Shown in pieces: positions 1,006 through 12,994 of a DNA stretch of 23,821 nucleotides. Numbering within the stretch: position 1 is the stretch's first letter; each line of letters opens with the position of its first letter. The DNA is from a virus, in the IMG/VR virus record IMGVR_UViG_3300017753_000107, positions 1 through 23,821 of that record, one strand, 5' to 3'. A program made the position numbers and the translations under genes. The notes beneath the pieces are model-generated. The model was not told the origin of the DNA. It saw only the letters and a list, made by a program, of their open reading frames with translations, and did no database searches.

Positions 1006-4000
1006 TTAGGTATCCCAGCGAAGTACAAAAGTAGTGTCAGTTTCATCAGAAGCTCTAACTGGCTGACCAAGTTTACCTACTACTAATAATTCGTTGTCTT
1101 CATTATAAAGACCAATTGTAGTAACATAAGGTTTAAAAAGTGAACCTGTTGCAAAATCTGCTAATTCATGGGAATCTTGAGATCTTATTTTTCTTGCTGA
1201 AATGTTTAATGTGTCATTAAATTCATATTCATCTATTGTACATTGATATTCATGTTCAAAAATTAAATGTGATCCTTGAAAATGAACTTTATATAAAACA
1301 GGTTCAGGATTTGTATTATTTGAACCTATAATTACTTTACTAAGAGATCTTCCACGAAAATTAGAAATAACATAAGCATTTCCATTGTCTATAAATCTAA
1401 GATTATTTAATCCACTAGCATTATCTTTAAATCTATAATCTGTTAATGTACCACTTTCATCAAAATTACCATTTCCCCCTATACCAAAATTTTCTATGAA
1501 AAAATCATTTGTAGGAAAAGTTCTTTCAAGTATTCCCCCAGGTTTAGCTAAAGGAGTTGAATTTATATAATAAGCTGATAATATATCCCATGGTACTTCT
1601 AATCTATATTCCCATAATCTGGTACCTTGTGTTTCGGTTCCAAAATTAGTTGCAGGAATCCATCCATTTACTGCATCAAATTGTGTACCCCATCCTCCTG
1701 CAGCAAACCTAGTACCTGTTGGTTCAGATATAGAGGAGGCTTGACTTGTTAAAAACATTTTAGTTCCATCATTATTAAATTCTATGGATCTTACTTTTAT
1801 AGGATATCCTTCTGGTGAAATTAAAGATGTTAAATCTAATACTTTTCCTGAATGTCCATATCTATAATTTACAGGATTTCTATTAGTTGCTAAAGATGAT
1901 GAATCAGTAAAAGCTGCAGGTTGATTATCTTTAAAATATTCACCTGTTATTTCTATACTGCTTATATCCCAAGGTACTGCTAAATTATGTTCTATTATAT
2001 TGTAAGTAGAGTCTAAAGGAGTATTGGGACCACTTGGTAAACCAAGAGGATTTAAATAAAGATCAGGACCCATAGAATTATTTCTATGATCTCCACTATC
2101 AAATCTAACTTTTGCTGAATCATGTGCTGTGAAAAATTTAGTACCATCTGGTTTAAATGCAAGTGCCATTGGGGTTAATCCTCCTTGTCTATAATATTTT
2201 TGTGATGGGGTAACAGTTTGTTCTGCTATCATACTACTAAATTTATAATATTCAGTACGATATACTTTAGCTTGATCTATTCTTAAAGAATCAGCAGTCC
2301 AATTACTAGCATCACGGACAGGTGTTTGTGTAGCGGGGTTAGATCCACTAGATATATTCCAAGGAACAGTAAGAGGTATTTGAACTATTCCTCCTAAAAA
2401 TCTCCAATAGGTTGATCCAGAACTAGCATGATTTTTAAAAAGATCAAGATTATTATAAGTAGCTGGAGGTATAGTTGTGGAGGATGGGTTTACTGTTTGA
2501 AAATGGGTATCCATTTCAGCCATAGTAGGATGATTAGATCCTGATAATATATCATGACCATTTCCAATTAGATATAAATTCATTCCATCAGGTGAAAATT
2601 TTATATCATGTGTATTATTTAAAAATAAATAAGGAAGAGAAGATGATATAGTTGCATATGAAGCTGTGTGTCCTAATGCGTGAGCTGTTGTACCCGTAAG
2701 ATAAGCTCCTGATCCTACATCATTTCCTGTTGTGCTTTGTGAAACAAAAGAAAAAGGAGTACTTAACTCATGTTTATAAACCGTCATTGGGTGTTTATGT
2801 CGTAGACTTCTATCTGAATTAGAATATCCTGCGTTAACATTACTTAAATTACTTTCTCTTCTTTCTACATAAAAATGTTCTGTTCCATCTGGTTTAACAT
2901 CAATCCCACCATGCATTGGTGTTGCATTACCATCAAAAGGTTGATTATTATAATTAAATTTAAATGTTCTTTCAGCAATTCTATCTACATTATGAGGATT
3001 AAATTCAAAAATTGCTTTAGTAGGTACGTCTATATCTTGTACATTTGGTTTTGTAATTGTTGCAAAACCATTTTGATAAAAAATATTTCCAATATAAGGA
3101 GAAGCATCTATACTTTCTGATATATTTTTAATTGAAGCTGTATTAAATTGATTATTCCATATATTTATACAACTTAAACTTCCATTAAAAAATTTTGTAT
3201 CTGATCCTAATGTTTCATCTTTACTTATTATACCTTTAGAACCTATATATAAATTAGCTAAATTTCTTGTTTCTTCTAATACACTATCAGAAGCTTCTAT
3301 AATTTTATTACCATCTATATGAATTTCCATTACAGATGATGATTTTTGAACTAAAACATGGTGAAATTCAGGATGTTTAGAAGAACCCGTTAGTTCAGCA
3401 CTTATAGATATTGTTTGTTTTCCATCTGATCTTGCAAAATATAATGATTGACTTTGCATGTAAACCTCAAATGGAAATTGAGGCTGAGAAGGTATGTCTA
3501 AAGGTTGAGAAGAACCTGATTTTGCAGTATTTTTAGTTGTTTGAGTACCAGTATTTAAATCACTTGGAGATACTGTTTGTGTTCCACTTTTACATATAAT
3601 ATAACGTTTCGATTTATCGTAAAATACACTATTTGGTCCTCTTGGAACTCTTCTTACTGGTAAAAAGGTTTTAGGTGAGCTAGCTAAAGAAAAATCTTTA
3701 GGGAAAATATGATTTGGCAGAATTGCAGGAAGTAATCCTGTTCCTTCAAAAGGGTAAAGATAACCAACATATTGATTAGGATGACTAGGAAAAGATGACG
3801 ATGCTTCTGTAGATGTTAATAGTGTATGTGGTAGAGCATCTGGGAGACTAAAATCTGCACTATCTGCTTCTAAATTTTCTTTTAAAAATTTAAAATCTGG
3901 ATTTATAGTAAGTTCTAAAGGAAAAGCAGCTGTTGCATTTTGAAAACCCTTTATTATGTTTAAATTTTCATTTGCTGTGTGCATTTCTGTTAATGTGGGT

Positions 4001-5190
4001 ATATACCAATCATTATATCCTTTAAATATAAGTCCATCTATAAGAGTACCTGCAGTTCCTGTAGCTGCCCCATCTGCATTTCTCATATTTACAGTTTGTG
4101 CTTTACCATCCCCTATTTTAGGTGTAAAACCAGGTCCTGTTGTTACATTACCTACTCCTGCGTTAGCGTTTGCTCCATCTACTCCCCAAACATATGGTTG
4201 ACCTAATTGATTAGAAAATGTTCCTATTGCCTCTTTAGATATAATATAAATAAAAAATGGATCTACATCAAATATTCTTCCTCCTCCAAAATCTAATCCA
4301 ATACTTGATGATGCATTTATTATTTTACCTCCTACAGGATTAGGATCTATCCAAAAAGATATTGAAAAATCTTCATTATTAAAATTAAATTTATCATTAT
4401 GAGGAGATGTTATGTATGAACCTACTTTACTATCAAAATCTATTTGTGAATAATTGTTCCCATTAACTCCTAAATTACTATTTCGACTAAAATTGACTTT
4501 TTTATATGTAAATTCATTATAATAATAACTTTCATCTGTTTCTAATAAATTATTAGGAGTGCTATAACGAGGTGTTGCATCTGGGTGTTCTACTCCTCTT
4601 CTCCAAAATCTTTTAGTTATTCCTACTTCTTTATTTTGTGGATCAGTTAATTTAACAGCATATCCAGGAATAGTATCTAAATCATATGCTTTAAAAGCAT
4701 TAACTGGTTCTAATTTAAATACATTTTTTCGAATGTCTGAAGGGTAATGGTTTATGTTAGTACCACTAATAATAAGATTACCGTAAGTATCATCTACTAC
4801 TTGATAATTGCTTGAAGAAAGCAAAAATTCTCCTGGTTTTACTTCATGACCATATAATCCTGCTGGAATAGATAATATTTGAGCGGTTTTATATAATTTT
4901 CTTTGTTGTTTTAAATAATTATTATATCCAAATCTATCAAAAATATTTTTTTTAAAATTTCTATAAAAAAGATGATCTAATTGATTATATTTAATAACAT
5001 TTTTAGTATCACCTCCATAAGCACCACTAGATGTACTATACTGAGATATAGATTCTGAAGTCCAACTAACACTGTGCCATGTTATTTGATTTTCTTCGGC
5101 TGATTGAGAAGTAAAATTATATTGTTTATGGGCATTAAAAGGAACTACTGCGTAATCTTGGGCTGTAAACTTTTTATAAGCTTCTGACAT
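1006..5190 (-). CDS. Large multidomain tail adhesin (LamG + DUF1566/Lcl + beta-propeller)
   Basis: Probable receptor-binding virion protein of 1394 residues. Residues 1-140 and 1290-1394 match the scaffold of the neighbouring 367-residue protein: an FxxQD start, a 'KPG.. L' segment near 118-124, and a C-terminal YVTTIGLYNEDNELLVVGKL block (1355-1374). Residues about 225-297 and 520-697 look like two halves of a LamG/concanavalin-type lectin domain (DFSISFW at 274-280; IHIDG at 623-627; LYIGSKG at 647-653). Between them, about 300-516, lies a DUF1566-like (Lcl) domain with YNDWYIPTLTEM, LLTSTE and a terminal LPVRRVP. Residues about 750-1290 hold degenerate beta-propeller blades with FxPDGTK and VPWDIS motifs. 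No signal peptide or transmembrane segment. Carbohydrate binding is inferred from the folds. Twelve-base gap from the upstream gene, no Shine-Dalgarno. Confidence 0.85.
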   Translation of the reverse strand: MSEAYKKFTAQDYAVVPFNAHKQYNFTSQSAEENQITWHSVSWTSESISQYSTSSGAYGGDTKNVIKYNQLDHLFYRNFKKNIFDRFGYNNYLKQQRKLYKTAQILSIPAGLYGHEVKPGEFLLSSSNYQVVDDTYGNLIISGTNINHYPSDIRKNVFKLEPVNAFKAYDLDTIPGYAVKLTDPQNKEVGITKRFWRRGVEHPDATPRYSTPNNLLETDESYYYNEFTYKKVNFSRNSNLGVNGNNYSQIDFDSKVGSYITSPHNDKFNFNNEDFSISFWIDPNPVGGKIINASSSIGLDFGGGRIFDVDPFFIYIISKEAIGTFSNQLGQPYVWGVDGANANAGVGNVTTGPGFTPKIGDGKAQTVNMRNADGAATGTAGTLIDGLIFKGYNDWYIPTLTEMHTANENLNIIKGFQNATAAFPLELTINPDFKFLKENLEADSADFSLPDALPHTLLTSTEASSSFPSHPNQYVGYLYPFEGTGLLPAILPNHIFPKDFSLASSPKTFLPVRRVPRGPNSVFYDKSKRYIICKSGTQTVSPSDLNTGTQTTKNTAKSGSSQPLDIPSQPQFPFEVYMQSQSLYFARSDGKQTISISAELTGSSKHPEFHHVLVQKSSSVMEIHIDGNKIIEASDSVLEETRNLANLYIGSKGIISKDETLGSDTKFFNGSLSCINIWNNQFNTASIKNISESIDASPYIGNIFYQNGFATITKPNVQDIDVPTKAIFEFNPHNVDRIAERTFKFNYNNQPFDGNATPMHGGIDVKPDGTEHFYVERRESNLSNVNAGYSNSDRSLRHKHPMTVYKHELSTPFSFVSQSTTGNDVGSGAYLTGTTAHALGHTASYATISSSLPYLFLNNTHDIKFSPDGMNLYLIGNGHDILSGSNHPTMAEMDTHFQTVNPSSTTIPPATYNNLDLFKNHASSGSTYWRFLGGIVQIPLTVPWNISSGSNPATQTPVRDASNWTADSLRIDQAKVYRTEYYKFSSMIAEQTVTPSQKYYRQGGLTPMALAFKPDGTKFFTAHDSAKVRFDSGDHRNNSMGPDLYLNPLGLPSGPNTPLDSTYNIIEHNLAVPWDISSIEITGEYFKDNQPAAFTDSSSLATNRNPVNYRYGHSGKVLDLTSLISPEGYPIKVRSIEFNNDGTKMFLTSQASSISEPTGTRFAAGGWGTQFDAVNGWIPATNFGTETQGTRLWEYRLEVPWDILSAYYINSTPLAKPGGILERTFPTNDFFIENFGIGGNGNFDESGTLTDYRFKDNASGLNNLRFIDNGNAYVISNFRGRSLSKVIIGSNNTNPEPVLYKVHFQGSHLIFEHEYQCTIDEYEFNDTLNISARKIRSQDSHELADFATGSLFKPYVTTIGLYNEDNELLVVGKLGQPVRASDETDTTFVLRWDT
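1321..2943 (-). repeat. Degenerate beta-propeller blade repeats in adhesin
   Basis: Within adhesin residues about 750-1290, four to five divergent blades share a core 'I.FxPDGT(K)xF/Y': IDVKPDGTEHFY (763-774), IKFSPDGMNLYL (863-874), LAFKPDGTKFFT (1010-1021), IEFNNDGTKMFL (1136-1147) and probably LRFIDNGNAYVI (1264-1275). Three are followed or preceded by a VPW(D/N)I(S/L) motif: 942-947, 1072-1077 and 1199-1204. This 'PDGTK...STPWDVS' type repeat is common in marine phage and bacterial surface proteins. Repetition is at the protein level only; the DNA is too diverged to look repeated. Confidence 0.72.
3643..4290 (-). other. DUF1566 (Lcl-type) domain inserted in LamG domain of adhesin
   Basis: Encodes about residues 301-516 of the adhesin. 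Visible hallmarks in family order: GGGRIFDVD at 302-310, PYVWG at 332-336, an IGDG turn at 359-362, the signature YNDWYIPTLTEM at 392-403, LLTSTE at 457-462 and the closing LPVRRVP at 510-516. This pattern is typical of DUF1566/Lcl domains, which are reported to have a C-type-lectin-like fold. Flanking sequences on both sides read as lectin (LamG) strands, so it appears nested within another domain. Boundaries are approximate. Confidence 0.75.
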
Positions 5191-5202: not shown

Positions 5203-6306
5203 TTAATAATCTAATTTAACTCTAATAAGTGCTTCCTTTGTAAAATCTTTAACAACTGGTTGACTTAATTTTGCTACTGCAACTAAATCATTAGAATCAT
5301 TATATAAACCTACAGTTGTAATGTAAGTTACTGGGTTATTTATCATACTACTATAAGTTAAATTACCTGTATTATCTGTAAATGAAGGGTTTGTTGTATA
5401 ATTAAATTCAAAGTTTTTAGCTCTTGCAAAATAATATTGTGATGTTATTTTTTCTTCACTGTCTACTATAAACCCTCCTGCTGACATTGATATTGCATAA
5501 AATAATTGTTCTGGATTACGAAGTGCACCAATATAATCATATTGGTTTAAAGGTCCTCTTGATATATTAGGAGCTAATCCTGAAAAATTAGCTGTACCCA
5601 TAGCTGAAGAACCAGTAGTTCCAAAAGCTGATGGGTTTAAAATGATTACACCTGCATCTGGGTAAAATAAACCATATGAAGAAGTTACATTATTACCTGT
5701 TCCAATTTGTAAATGGGTACCATCTTTAGCTATTCCACTAGATCCTGATACAATATTAAATTGTCTTCCTAAATTAGTAAGTTTAGCAGAACCATTTGTT
5801 GTAACACTATCATCTGTAAGGTGAATTTCTGATTGTACCCCTGGAGATACTTGTATAGAAGCAGATATATCTAAATTTAAAGTACCTGGTTTTAAAGATT
5901 GTTTATATCTTGCTCTTGCTATATTAATAACATAAATATCATCTGGCACATGAGTACCAAATGTAAAAAATTGATTTTCATCTCCATAAATTAAACTTCT
6001 ATAAGCACCATAAGTTGTTCTAGCAGCATTAAAACCATGTGAACCACTATCAGATGTAAAATCAGGAGAACCTGATCCTAATCTATTACCATAACCAACA
6101 GAATATTGTATTTCTGCTGCTGATGATGAAGGATGTATATTATAAACATCTAAATGAAACCATCCTGAACTAGTAGGAGAATTAAAATGTTGTACAGAAC
6201 TTGTATATCCTGTTTGTAAATTGTTTGTGTTATTACTCCATGTTGAAGTTACTAAAGAATCTGTACTTACTACTATATCTTGTTGGCTAAATCTTGTTAA
6301 ACTCAT
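5203..6306 (-). CDS. Tail fibre / adhesin scaffold protein
   Basis: A 367-residue virion protein of a family seen in marine T4-like phages, with no enzymatic motif. N-terminal: FSQQDIVV (6-13), then IQYSVGYGNRLGSGS (66-80). The middle has DDIYVINIARARYKQSLKPGT (122-142) and a LFYPDAGVIILNP strand pair (213-225). The C-terminal 80 residues carry YYFARAKNFEFNY (291-303) and TYITTVGLYNDSNDLVAVAKL (327-347), ending KVKLDY. The same blocks, in the same order, occur in the downstream 1394-residue adhesin, so the two are paralogues and may assemble on the same baseplate position. Gly/Ser/Thr-rich, predicted all-beta. It lies 11 bases after the 234-residue structural gene and 12 bases before the large adhesin. 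The leader is AAATAAATAAATG, with no Shine-Dalgarno. Confidence 0.75.
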   Translation of the reverse strand: MSLTRFSQQDIVVSTDSLVTSTWSNNTNNLQTGYTSSVQHFNSPTSSGWFHLDVYNIHPSSSAAEIQYSVGYGNRLGSGSPDFTSDSGSHGFNAARTTYGAYRSLIYGDENQFFTFGTHVPDDIYVINIARARYKQSLKPGTLNLDISASIQVSPGVQSEIHLTDDSVTTNGSAKLTNLGRQFNIVSGSSGIAKDGTHLQIGTGNNVTSSYGLFYPDAGVIILNPSAFGTTGSSAMGTANFSGLAPNISRGPLNQYDYIGALRNPEQLFYAISMSAGGFIVDSEEKITSQYYFARAKNFEFNYTTNPSFTDNTGNLTYSSMINNPVTYITTVGLYNDSNDLVAVAKLSQPVVKDFTKEALIRVKLDY

Positions 6307-8809: not shown

Positions 8810-11800
8810 TTATTTAATTTTATAATAATTTCCAAATTTATAATAAATACTGGATTTTCTTCCTTTTACAACATTTCCTAATATTTCACTTGATGTATAA
8901 GGTTTATATTTAACAGGTTCACCTGATCTTTTAGCTTCTTGAGTAGTTGTAATTGTAATAGTTGCTTGACTTGCTCCTCCTGTTAATGTTGCATTAGTAA
9001 TAAAAATTTTCAAATTATCCAAACTACTACCATTACTTAATATCCCTGTTATTTCAAGATCATTACCATTAACTATACAATCTGCTATGACTCCAAAGGT
9101 TTTTAATTCAGTGGCAATTAAATTCATAGTATTATTATGACTACTTGCAAAAGTTATTGTAGATATAGAATCACCATTTACCGTACAACTAAATTGATTA
9201 CCTGTTACTAACACTCCACTAAATGATATTGTCATAAGTTGAGCCTTAGGTCTTGAATCAAAAGGGTTTATAGGAGCTTGAGCTGCTTGTTGAGGTTCAT
9301 CTAAAATATAACTATTTACATCAATAGTAGTATTAGTTCCTTGTTCTACTCTATGAGATCTGTTGTTTATTACTTCAAGACTTCCTGTTGAAAGATCTTT
9401 TCTAAAATTATTTGTAGTAGCAACATTTCCTCCCCCTACAGTTGTTCTATTTTGAGAACCATTTGGTGGTATTCTATCATACTTAGGTCCCATAAAAGAA
9501 TATATTTCATCTGCGGCTTCTCCTTTTACATCAGCATGTATTGTATTATAAGAACCAGATATCATTGTTTGACCATCATCTATAACTGGTAATTCTCTTG
9601 CAAATTTAGTTCTTTCTAAATAATGTGGTTCAATTAAAAGACCTGTTTTTAAATTGGCTTTCATTGGAACCCATTGTTCTATTAATTTAAATAATGTGTG
9701 ATCTATATATTGTATTGTTTTAATATAATCCCAATAATTAAATCTATTAGGTACTCTTTTAAAATAATCATCTCTTAAATGTTTTAAATCTGTATAAAGA
9801 GAGGCTGTTTGGGCTGAAGGTAAAGGGGATCCTATAAAATCATCTAATCTAAAAGCCCCCATATTATAAATTATATGTTCATTTATTTCTGTTTGTGGTG
9901 AGAAAAATACTCCTAAATCTTCAAAATCTTGTGGTTGTCTGTCTAATACAGATACTTCAGATCTTCTTGTAGTAGATAAAATATCATCATCTATAGAACC
10001 TTCATCCATTCTAACTTTTTCACTTGTCATTGAAATACCAACTGTGTCTGGAGTAGGTAAATGATGAACTTCTAATACTTCTTCATATTTCATACCTGAT
10101 ATATTAGTTGAAATACTAGCTGTTGGTATATAATGTATATTAAAATTAGGATGAGAACTTGAACTGTCTATTGTTTGATCTGTTTCACAAACTAAATTAC
10201 TACCTAAAGGAGCTCTAAAAATTAATTCATCATACGCTGAGGATGTAGTGTTACCTGCATATATAAAAGGATCTAAGGCTTGTATTTTTAATGTTTTTGG
10301 GTTTAAAATATCTGTGCTAGCTGATGCAAAATAATATCTTACTTCTTGAAGAGATCCTGTGTATGTTAAAGTATTTATTAAACTATAATATGTAGAACTA
10401 TTTTTTTCAATACCACAAAAATAAGCAAATGTTGCTCCTTCAGAAAAAGCAGCTATATTATCATTTCCCCAACCAAATCTTGCTACTCCACTAGATAATC
10501 CTTCTAAATCAAAACTAGAAGTGTGGTATGTTACACTTTTTAAATGATTTGATTGATAAGCTCCAAATTTAAGTGTACCTTCATAATAATTATCAACAAA
10601 TCCATCGTAGGTTTTAGAAGTATCTACTTCTCTTCCCATAAAAATATTCCAAAAATCTCCATTGTATATAGGAAAATTATTAGTTGAAGATAATAAAGAA
10701 CTACCTGTGTATAAATCTAATTTACCGTATTGAATAGAATCTCCTGATGAAGATATATCATTTCCTATATAAGGGGTTAAAACTAAATGGGTATCATATT
10801 GTGGTCTACTTAGATTTTGGCCTGATCCTGATAAAGAAAATAAATGATATTGATTATTTGATCTTGTAGGTTTAATTCTAAAAGTTACTGTTTTTGCATT
10901 TTGATCATCTTTAGCAGTAGTAGTTCTTTCTGCTGTAAAAGAAGAAGACCATGCTGTTTTTAAGAAATAACCATTTTCACTTGAACTTCCATGTAATGCT
11001 AATGAAGATTTATCATAACTAAAACACTTATATTTTGTTTTGTCTTTTACAGGTCCTCCATATTCTTTAACATTTAAAACAGTTGAAGGTACTCCATAAC
11101 AACTCATTAGGGCTCTTAAACCTCTTTCTGTTCCTTTAGTTTTTAACAAATAAGGTGCATTATGGTATAATCTTTTCCAAATTTCTTTTGTTATATCTCC
11201 TTTAGGAATAGATTTAGTAGAAGTTGTAACTAATGATTGAGATACTGGAGTATCATAATATAAACTTCCTGTGGTTCCTTCTCCTAAAATATATTCTATT
11301 AAATTAGCATTTTCAAATTGATCAAATGTTTCTAAACCTAAACTTTTTAATGTAAAATAAACTAAATCTTTTGATACCCCTTTTTTATGGTGAGTATCAT
11401 TTATTTCTGTTGTGTGTTTTATATGAGTCCATATATGATCAAAATGATGTCCTATCATATGAGTAAAAGTTTTATAAAAACTATTATCTTCATTATCTAC
11501 AATATGTTTAGGTACTAAATTTATTAATCCATATTCGTTTCCAAAATCAAATAAAGAAGCAGATAATAATTGTCCTCCATAATAAGAATTATTACTATTT
11601 TCACTTCCTAACCAAGTTAAAGCTTCAGAAGATGTTACTGAATAAAGAAGAGATCCTGTGTTTGTACTGGTATGTTTAGGCCAAGTAAATATATTGGATC
11701 CTGTTTCATAATATAAAAATTGTTCATATCCATCTAATCCTTTTATTAACTTTTCTTTTTTACTATTAATTAATTCTTTATTATTTAAAGCTACTTGAGG

Positions 11801-12994
11801 AATAATACTTGTAATACTTTCTATTTCTCCTATTTGTCTATCATATAATTCTATTAAACCTAATTTATATTCAAAGTTTTTTAAACGATCAAATGCACTA
11901 CCAAAATGAACAAAATTTTCAAAATGATAAGGTACATCTATAGTTTCTGTGCTTGAAGATACAGGTCTTATATGATCATAATTTATTTGTGGTACTTCTT
12001 TATTTTCTAATTGGTTTAGAAGATGTTGATATGATGAAGTTACACTATAATTTAATAATTCATTATAATTTTTATAATTAGAGGGCATTGAATTATTTTC
12101 TCTAACATTTATTTTAAAATTAGGTCCTTGTAAAGGAATAACATCTGCATCATTTACAAATTCAGGTTCTCCTAAATCAACTGTTACAGTTATAGGATCT
12201 ATAATTAATTCTGATATTTTAAATGTTGATTTAGTTGTTATTGAGGGTGATAAAGGTTCTAATAATTTTATTAATAATTCATGTTTATTAGGATTTTTAT
12301 TTAATAAAACATTTATTCCTATAAAATTTAAATCATTTCCAAAATTTAAAATAATATCTTTAAAATAAGAAGATGTTTCAATTTCTGATATAAAAAGATT
12401 AATTGATTTATCAAATGAATTATTTTCTATATTTGGAATAATAGCTCTAATTTCTCTACGAGAAGGTGAAATTTCTTTAATATTAAATACATTATCTCCT
12501 TTTTTAAATATTTTATTTCTTTGAATATTTAATTTAATCTTATATTTACCTGCTATATAAGATCTATCATTTAATATAGCAATAGGATCTATTTGAAATG
12601 TAGGGGATACTTCTGGTTTTTCTCCTACAGAAGGTGATTTTGATTCTACTGCAGTTACCCATACCATTTGATACCCTGTATTAAACCAATAACCATCTGT
12701 TGATTTATTAGGTCCTGGGCTATATACTCTTTCTCCTGCTCCTTTTGCTTCTGGATTTACTATTGGAGGTTCTTTTCCTGTTGGAATTAAAGGAGTTGAA
12801 ATAATTTCATCTTCTATTTCATTTAAAAAATATTCTGTAAAATTATCCTCTGAATATAAAAGATTATTATTAAGATCATATATATGTAATTCTACTGTGT
12901 CTTCATTTCTTCCAAAAGTTTTTGAAATTACTTTAGAAGTAACAGAATCTAGTTTAAATATTTGTTCTGAAGATATGTCTGTAATTGTAGCCAT
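8810..12994 (-). CDS. Giant baseplate protein, tail protein I / gp7-like core with LamG insertion
   Basis: A 1394-residue virion protein. Residues 601-648 (KEIWKRLYHNAPYLLKTKGTER.., then LRALMSCYGVP and VKEYGG) are a strongly conserved block in marine T4-like phages. Its 'KGT..gLr.l...g.p.....E' pattern resembles phage P2 tail protein I, the counterpart of T4 gp7. Residues 350-570 are helical with aromatic-rich stretches. Residues about 660-890 look like a LamG/concanavalin beta-sandwich (VTFRIKPT, FGWGNDN, TLTYTGSLQEVRYYFAS). Residues 1070-1130 (LRDDYFKRVPNRFNYWDYIK..) are conserved baseplate-type sequence. Residues about 1250-1352 form a small beta domain often seen as an add-on in phage structural proteins. 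The order gp25-gp6-...-this gene matches P2 W-J-I. The start shares one base with the preceding stop (TAATG). Wedge role is inferred. Confidence 0.7.
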   Translation of the reverse strand: MATITDISSEQIFKLDSVTSKVISKTFGRNEDTVELHIYDLNNNLLYSEDNFTEYFLNEIEDEIISTPLIPTGKEPPIVNPEAKGAGERVYSPGPNKSTDGYWFNTGYQMVWVTAVESKSPSVGEKPEVSPTFQIDPIAILNDRSYIAGKYKIKLNIQRNKIFKKGDNVFNIKEISPSRREIRAIIPNIENNSFDKSINLFISEIETSSYFKDIILNFGNDLNFIGINVLLNKNPNKHELLIKLLEPLSPSITTKSTFKISELIIDPITVTVDLGEPEFVNDADVIPLQGPNFKINVRENNSMPSNYKNYNELLNYSVTSSYQHLLNQLENKEVPQINYDHIRPVSSSTETIDVPYHFENFVHFGSAFDRLKNFEYKLGLIELYDRQIGEIESITSIIPQVALNNKELINSKKEKLIKGLDGYEQFLYYETGSNIFTWPKHTSTNTGSLLYSVTSSEALTWLGSENSNNSYYGGQLLSASLFDFGNEYGLINLVPKHIVDNEDNSFYKTFTHMIGHHFDHIWTHIKHTTEINDTHHKKGVSKDLVYFTLKSLGLETFDQFENANLIEYILGEGTTGSLYYDTPVSQSLVTTSTKSIPKGDITKEIWKRLYHNAPYLLKTKGTERGLRALMSCYGVPSTVLNVKEYGGPVKDKTKYKCFSYDKSSLALHGSSSENGYFLKTAWSSSFTAERTTTAKDDQNAKTVTFRIKPTRSNNQYHLFSLSGSGQNLSRPQYDTHLVLTPYIGNDISSSGDSIQYGKLDLYTGSSLLSSTNNFPIYNGDFWNIFMGREVDTSKTYDGFVDNYYEGTLKFGAYQSNHLKSVTYHTSSFDLEGLSSGVARFGWGNDNIAAFSEGATFAYFCGIEKNSSTYYSLINTLTYTGSLQEVRYYFASASTDILNPKTLKIQALDPFIYAGNTTSSAYDELIFRAPLGSNLVCETDQTIDSSSSHPNFNIHYIPTASISTNISGMKYEEVLEVHHLPTPDTVGISMTSEKVRMDEGSIDDDILSTTRRSEVSVLDRQPQDFEDLGVFFSPQTEINEHIIYNMGAFRLDDFIGSPLPSAQTASLYTDLKHLRDDYFKRVPNRFNYWDYIKTIQYIDHTLFKLIEQWVPMKANLKTGLLIEPHYLERTKFARELPVIDDGQTMISGSYNTIHADVKGEAADEIYSFMGPKYDRIPPNGSQNRTTVGGGNVATTNNFRKDLSTGSLEVINNRSHRVEQGTNTTIDVNSYILDEPQQAAQAPINPFDSRPKAQLMTISFSGVLVTGNQFSCTVNGDSISTITFASSHNNTMNLIATELKTFGVIADCIVNGNDLEITGILSNGSSLDNLKIFITNATLTGGASQATITITTTQEAKRSGEPVKYKPYTSSEILGNVVKGRKSSIYYKFGNYYKIK

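Follow-up and report, generated by a model that had tools for sequence, protein, structure and literature searches.

Insertion of a binding domain into the loop of another domain is known from the evolved Dit proteins of siphophages that infect Gram-positive bacteria, in which CBMs are inserted in loops of the galectin domain (PMC7291167), and recent domain shuffling has been reported to occur in phage receptor-binding proteins (PMC10684548). The DUF1566 domain is known from Legionella Lcl, where it forms a C-terminal domain (PF07603; structure 8q4e) on a trimeric collagen stalk, is highly conserved between strains, was described as C-type-lectin-like and binds sulphated glycosaminoglycans (PMC11162425). 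It is also a frequent target domain of diversity-generating retroelements (DGRs), in whose variable proteins it lies at the gene end and makes up the hypervariable portion of a binding protein (PMC4159848). In our literature search no paper was found that joins DUF1566 and laminin G in one phage protein.

The locus investigated here lies in a virus record of 23,821 bases, which was analysed in its entirety (hereafter the window) and represents an incomplete genome. The window carries T4-like baseplate genes, namely those for gp25-like and gp6-like wedge proteins, and among named phages its gp6 is closest to those of Microcystis phage Mel-JY01 and the Flavobacterium immuto phages, at 47-48% identity. 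Downstream of both wedge genes, and in the same position in relatives, the minus strand encodes a large protein which, from its gene position and its lectin-type domains, is probably an adhesin attached to the tail or baseplate. It is composed as follows:

1006-5190, minus strand: open reading frame of the large adhesin-like protein, 1394 aa, end gene of the baseplate/tail block
4519-5190, minus strand: N-terminal region, residues 1-224, conserved family-wide (alignment and tree)
4342-4518, minus strand: N-terminal part of the LamG jelly roll, residues ~225-283, last strand FSISFWIDP (LamG_3 match without the insert; jelly-roll alignment)
3607-4341, minus strand: inserted segment, residues ~284-528 (alignments with the insertion-free L005, L006, L027 and L032)
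3643-4290, minus strand: DUF1566/Lcl_C core, residues 301-516, hypervariable among close relatives (profiles, model, motifs and variability)
3091-3606, minus strand: C-terminal part of the LamG jelly roll, residues 529-700 (Pfam LamG_3; structure match)
1282-3039, minus strand: second optional block, residues 718-1303, with DGT-type repeated motifs (alignment; missing from the 561-aa relatives)
1009-1281, minus strand: conserved C-terminal domain, residues 1304-1394 (90% identity in L005)

For residues 1-224 Pfam gave no significant match. The DGT-type motifs of residues 718-1303 suggest a beta-propeller, an assignment based solely on these motifs, as all WD40-type Pfam matches were sub-threshold. 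The domain of residues 1304-1394 is also present in Flavobacterium and Microcystis phages and is a probable virion attachment module. Downstream of the adhesin gene, at 1-125 and 556-981, a primase-like gene and a GIY-YIG-like gene (556-981) were observed, with a small cluster of differences at bases 98-125 in contigs L002 and L004. The sequence L002:6017-12078 prolongs the phage by ~6 kb past the window start (end of the primase/toprim gene and more open reading frames). The neighbouring gene, for a 367-aa protein, holds a small patch of seven base differences between L002 and the window, all within 26 bases (5473-5498), by which residues 270-276 change from YAISMSA to FAIVSSS.

With the evolved Dit the adhesin shares a carbohydrate-binding-type domain that is placed in a jelly-roll loop of a tail-tip protein and is optional between relatives. 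It differs in the scaffold (LamG instead of galectin), in the insert (DUF1566/Lcl-type instead of CBM), in its T4-like baseplate context and in that the insert is a mosaic, fast-changing cassette. The mark of an evolved Dit, a CBM set into the galectin domain, is missing from the adhesin; the two work alike only. Compared with Lcl, the same fold and a conserved core motif are found, whereas the domain is internal, nested and variable here; its internal position also separates it from the DUF1566 proteins of DGRs, in spite of the shared hypervariability. Ongoing mosaicism is common to the adhesin and to the shuffled receptor-binding proteins, but here the exchanged unit is nested within another domain.

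As proof of a DUF1566 domain in the window, Pfam taken by itself proved insufficient, since the match of the insert to DUF1566/Lcl_C (PF07603) was weak and below the curated cut-off (14.2 bits, E 0.054; cut-off 34.9). Lcl_C was matched by 10 of 11 inserts, all of them under the cut-off (best E 1.5e-4), and the insert profile joins these to phage homologues above it (L119 with 43.5, L094 with 40.3 and L102 with 36.7 bits). The core GG..hF, W, GxG, GYxDWxhP..E and VR is invariant or nearly so in the insert alignments, being represented in the window by GGGRIF, W, GDG, GYNDWYIPT..E, LLTSTE and VRR, and inserts with invariant fold-core residues share just 21-51% identity with that of the window. 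Modelled alone (pLDDT 74.3, pTM 0.80), the insert could be superimposed on the Lcl C-terminal domain 8q4e with Z 8.8 and an rmsd of 2.8 over 115 of 131 residues (6 chains aligned). This match came from a structural second look, as Foldseek with the insert model returned no PDB match at E < 1 and phmmer none against PDB. Viral structural matches of the insert model include proteins annotated as DUF1566. The top match, with 41% identity over 231 columns, was A0A218ML58, a 'Laminin G domain-containing protein' of 1299 aa from an uncultured virus, whose description names LamG only and no nested DUF1566, so that the nested architecture is probably already present in UniProt under the LamG label. 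Because insert matches, insert profile, conserved core and the model match to 8q4e agree, the identity of the insert as a complete, divergent DUF1566/Lcl_C domain is regarded as secure from homology and modelling.

The preliminary description had placed a whole DUF1566 domain within a LamG domain, at 3643-4290. These positions correspond exactly to residues 301-516, i.e. to the DUF1566 core, and this core was borne out, while the inserted segment turned out slightly longer, comprising about residues 284-528. In the intact protein the Pfam LamG_3 match (E 4.4e-10) lies solely C-terminal of the insert, which would fit a tandem arrangement of two unrelated lectin-like domains around an independent DUF1566 domain. 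However, the 561-aa relatives L005, L006 and L027 align end to end with the window protein and without break across the insertion site, and lack residues ~284-528. Furthermore, removal of the insert yielded one continuous LamG_3 (PF13385) match over positions 4-150 with 42.4 bits (cut-off 27.6), compared with positions 45-150 and 31.4 bits for the C-terminal LamG part alone. The modelled jelly roll, finally, was aligned with pentraxins and other ConA-like lectin-type domains at Z 13.5-14.4 over 170-185 residues, and this alignment covers about residues 229-696, across the insert. As the model of the whole nested region is of low confidence (pLDDT 47), it was used for the jelly roll only; likewise, botulinum neurotoxin binding domains and pentraxins, the top PDB rows, were taken as indicating a shared jelly-roll fold and nothing further. 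The structure prediction suggested beforehand as a check agreed with the nesting. Since insertion-free alignments, the profile match after insert removal and the jelly-roll alignment spanning the insert agree, the DUF1566 domain splits a single LamG jelly roll into two halves, and a tandem arrangement is extremely improbable. With insertion-free homologues at hand and a single LamG match, neither unrelated halves nor a lack of insertion-free relatives was found.

A profile scan delivered 79 relatives. Among 84,980 cellular genomes scanned, no relative was detected. DUF1566 occupies the same LamG loop in 16 distinct sequences, and in seven others (L052, L060-L062, L064, L076, L077) an unrelated domain of ~130-180 aa, without significant Pfam match (e.g. 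L061:2427-2849), is found there. It was also checked whether the L061 slot domain resembles the neighbouring 1394-aa protein (8810-12994), but this idea was given up. When DUF1566 is mapped onto a tree built from the N-terminal region, two changes suffice, against a shuffled mean of 14.3; the unrelated slot domain is scattered and needs five. The insertion-free clade (L029-L054 group) falls within the DUF1566-bearing part of the tree (support 97/91 and 100/94), and the simplest reading of these sequences, with the root being uncertain, would be one gain and one loss of DUF1566. Another LamG loop, after the PFEVY strand region, was seen to hold insertions of ~200 aa (L037:11204-11761, L042, L049, L072-L079). 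In L025:2620-4002 and L028:3102-5225, ~460 and ~710 aa lie between the LamG halves, and the nested DUF1566 domain of both seems to hold further long insertions, possibly a triple nesting.

A look at variation in the insert had also been recommended, and an excess is strong in close relatives. Between L021 and L022, 28 of 268 amino acids differ in the insert and 3 of 576 in the N-terminal, LamG and C-terminal regions (Fisher 7e-12), and between L014 and L015 the insert shows 34 differences in 208 amino acids with 3 in 578 in the flanks (Fisher 1e-17). The window's own near-identical contigs L001-L004 display no clear excess, two of the four amino acid differences to L001 being located in the insert. 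Variable patches cluster in stretches that flank the conserved GYTDWYIPT core. In nine pairs dN/dS, where defined, lay between 0.49 and 1.08 for the insert, compared with 0.04-0.51 for the C-terminal half of LamG. In the closest pairs, however, local dS of the insert is elevated too, so that dN/dS there mirrors exchange as well as selection. Among the relatives compared, the insert gains amino acid changes faster than the scaffold.

Such values, mostly below 1, could also be expected if the nested domain were a structural decoration, shaped by relaxed constraint on a surface loop and ordinary phage mosaicism and playing no role in receptor choice, and the occurrence of relatives with no insert at all, or with an unrelated domain in the slot, would fit this as well. 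Nevertheless, the fold-core residues remain invariant at the low identities between inserts, variability is mainly found in certain stretches instead of being evenly spread, and the best-studied DUF1566 domain is that of a glycan-binding adhesin. A mere decoration is hence considered unlikely, and the insert is best read as a cassette for receptor binding which sits on a conserved scaffold and owes its diversity to homologous recombination together with relaxed or diversifying selection.

Homologous recombination is proposed because long identical tracts break around the insert. L016 and L017 show no difference over 973 nt (residues 1-324) and again over 637 nt (residues 507-718), yet in the two variable insert stretches they are just 84% and 77% identical. 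L016 and L088 share an insert tail identical over 180 compared bases, while their N-termini are just 88-89% identical. L015 and L017 have in common an identical tract of 1580 nt that runs through the insert, after which their identity drops to 78-79% over much of the later block; the block of residues 718-1303 (1282-3039) was accordingly observed to be exchanged too, its diverged later parts standing beside identical N-terminal and insert DNA. Since every sequence used is a contig from a metagenome, chimeric assembly could account for some of the mosaic joins. It would not explain, however, why diversity is repeatedly concentrated in the insert.

Variability concentrated in a DUF1566 domain, a frequent DGR target, together with a genome incomplete at 23.8 kb, could likewise be explained by a DGR with its reverse transcriptase (RT) and template repeat in a part of the genome that was not assembled, as the preliminary description had considered. 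In a DGR, changes are confined to template adenines and therefore occur mostly at codon positions 1 and 2, without indels. This signature was not encountered here: variable sites were distributed over codon positions 1, 2 and 3 as 19/17/18 in L021/L022 and 25/18/23 elsewhere, i.e. about equally, and indels were present. Moreover, no RT was found in the window record and 31 further records, mostly fragments, among them two relatives of 190 kb and 160 kb that are complete and whose homologues lack the insert. Searches of the window and of records from relatives, with the genomes being incomplete, revealed no template repeat and no further copy of the insert DNA, and the exchanged tracts are identical over long stretches, so that the variation looks recombinational. 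With an incomplete genome, a DGR can be judged no more than unlikely from these sequence data, and one with its parts hidden in the unassembled remainder has only a very slight chance of being correct; the suggestion was not borne out.

We therefore favour, with a probability of roughly 0.7, an adhesin with a LamG platform and a recombination-exchanged DUF1566 tip that alters the glycan recognised, for which no retroelement is needed. The conserved ends of the protein would fix the adhesin to the virion, with the central LamG jelly roll as the platform. The loop after strand FSISFWIDP would carry the DUF1566/Lcl-type domain as a ligand-binding tip, and co-circulating relatives would swap this domain by homologous recombination via the conserved flanks. 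Such an exchange would likely change the surface glycan recognised, and an influence on receptor choice is plausible. Whether LamG serves beyond this as a general docking scaffold in a family of marine phage adhesins, one loop of which takes unrelated domains and a second loop others, while the conserved flanking LamG DNA gives the homology for rapid cassette exchange, is an evenly balanced question.

In phage receptor-binding proteins it is usually the tip or the C-terminus that varies; in the adhesin, one lectin-type domain, itself variable, is carried inside another, with exchange junctions in or beside the conserved scaffold. If true, the LamG docking scaffold would allow hypervariable C-type-lectin-like binding tips to arise without a retroelement, and the adhesin family suggests that the DUF1566 fold, although a frequent retroelement target, can diversify by recombination alone. 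Differing alleles in near-identical phages make the link between this domain and host range directly testable.
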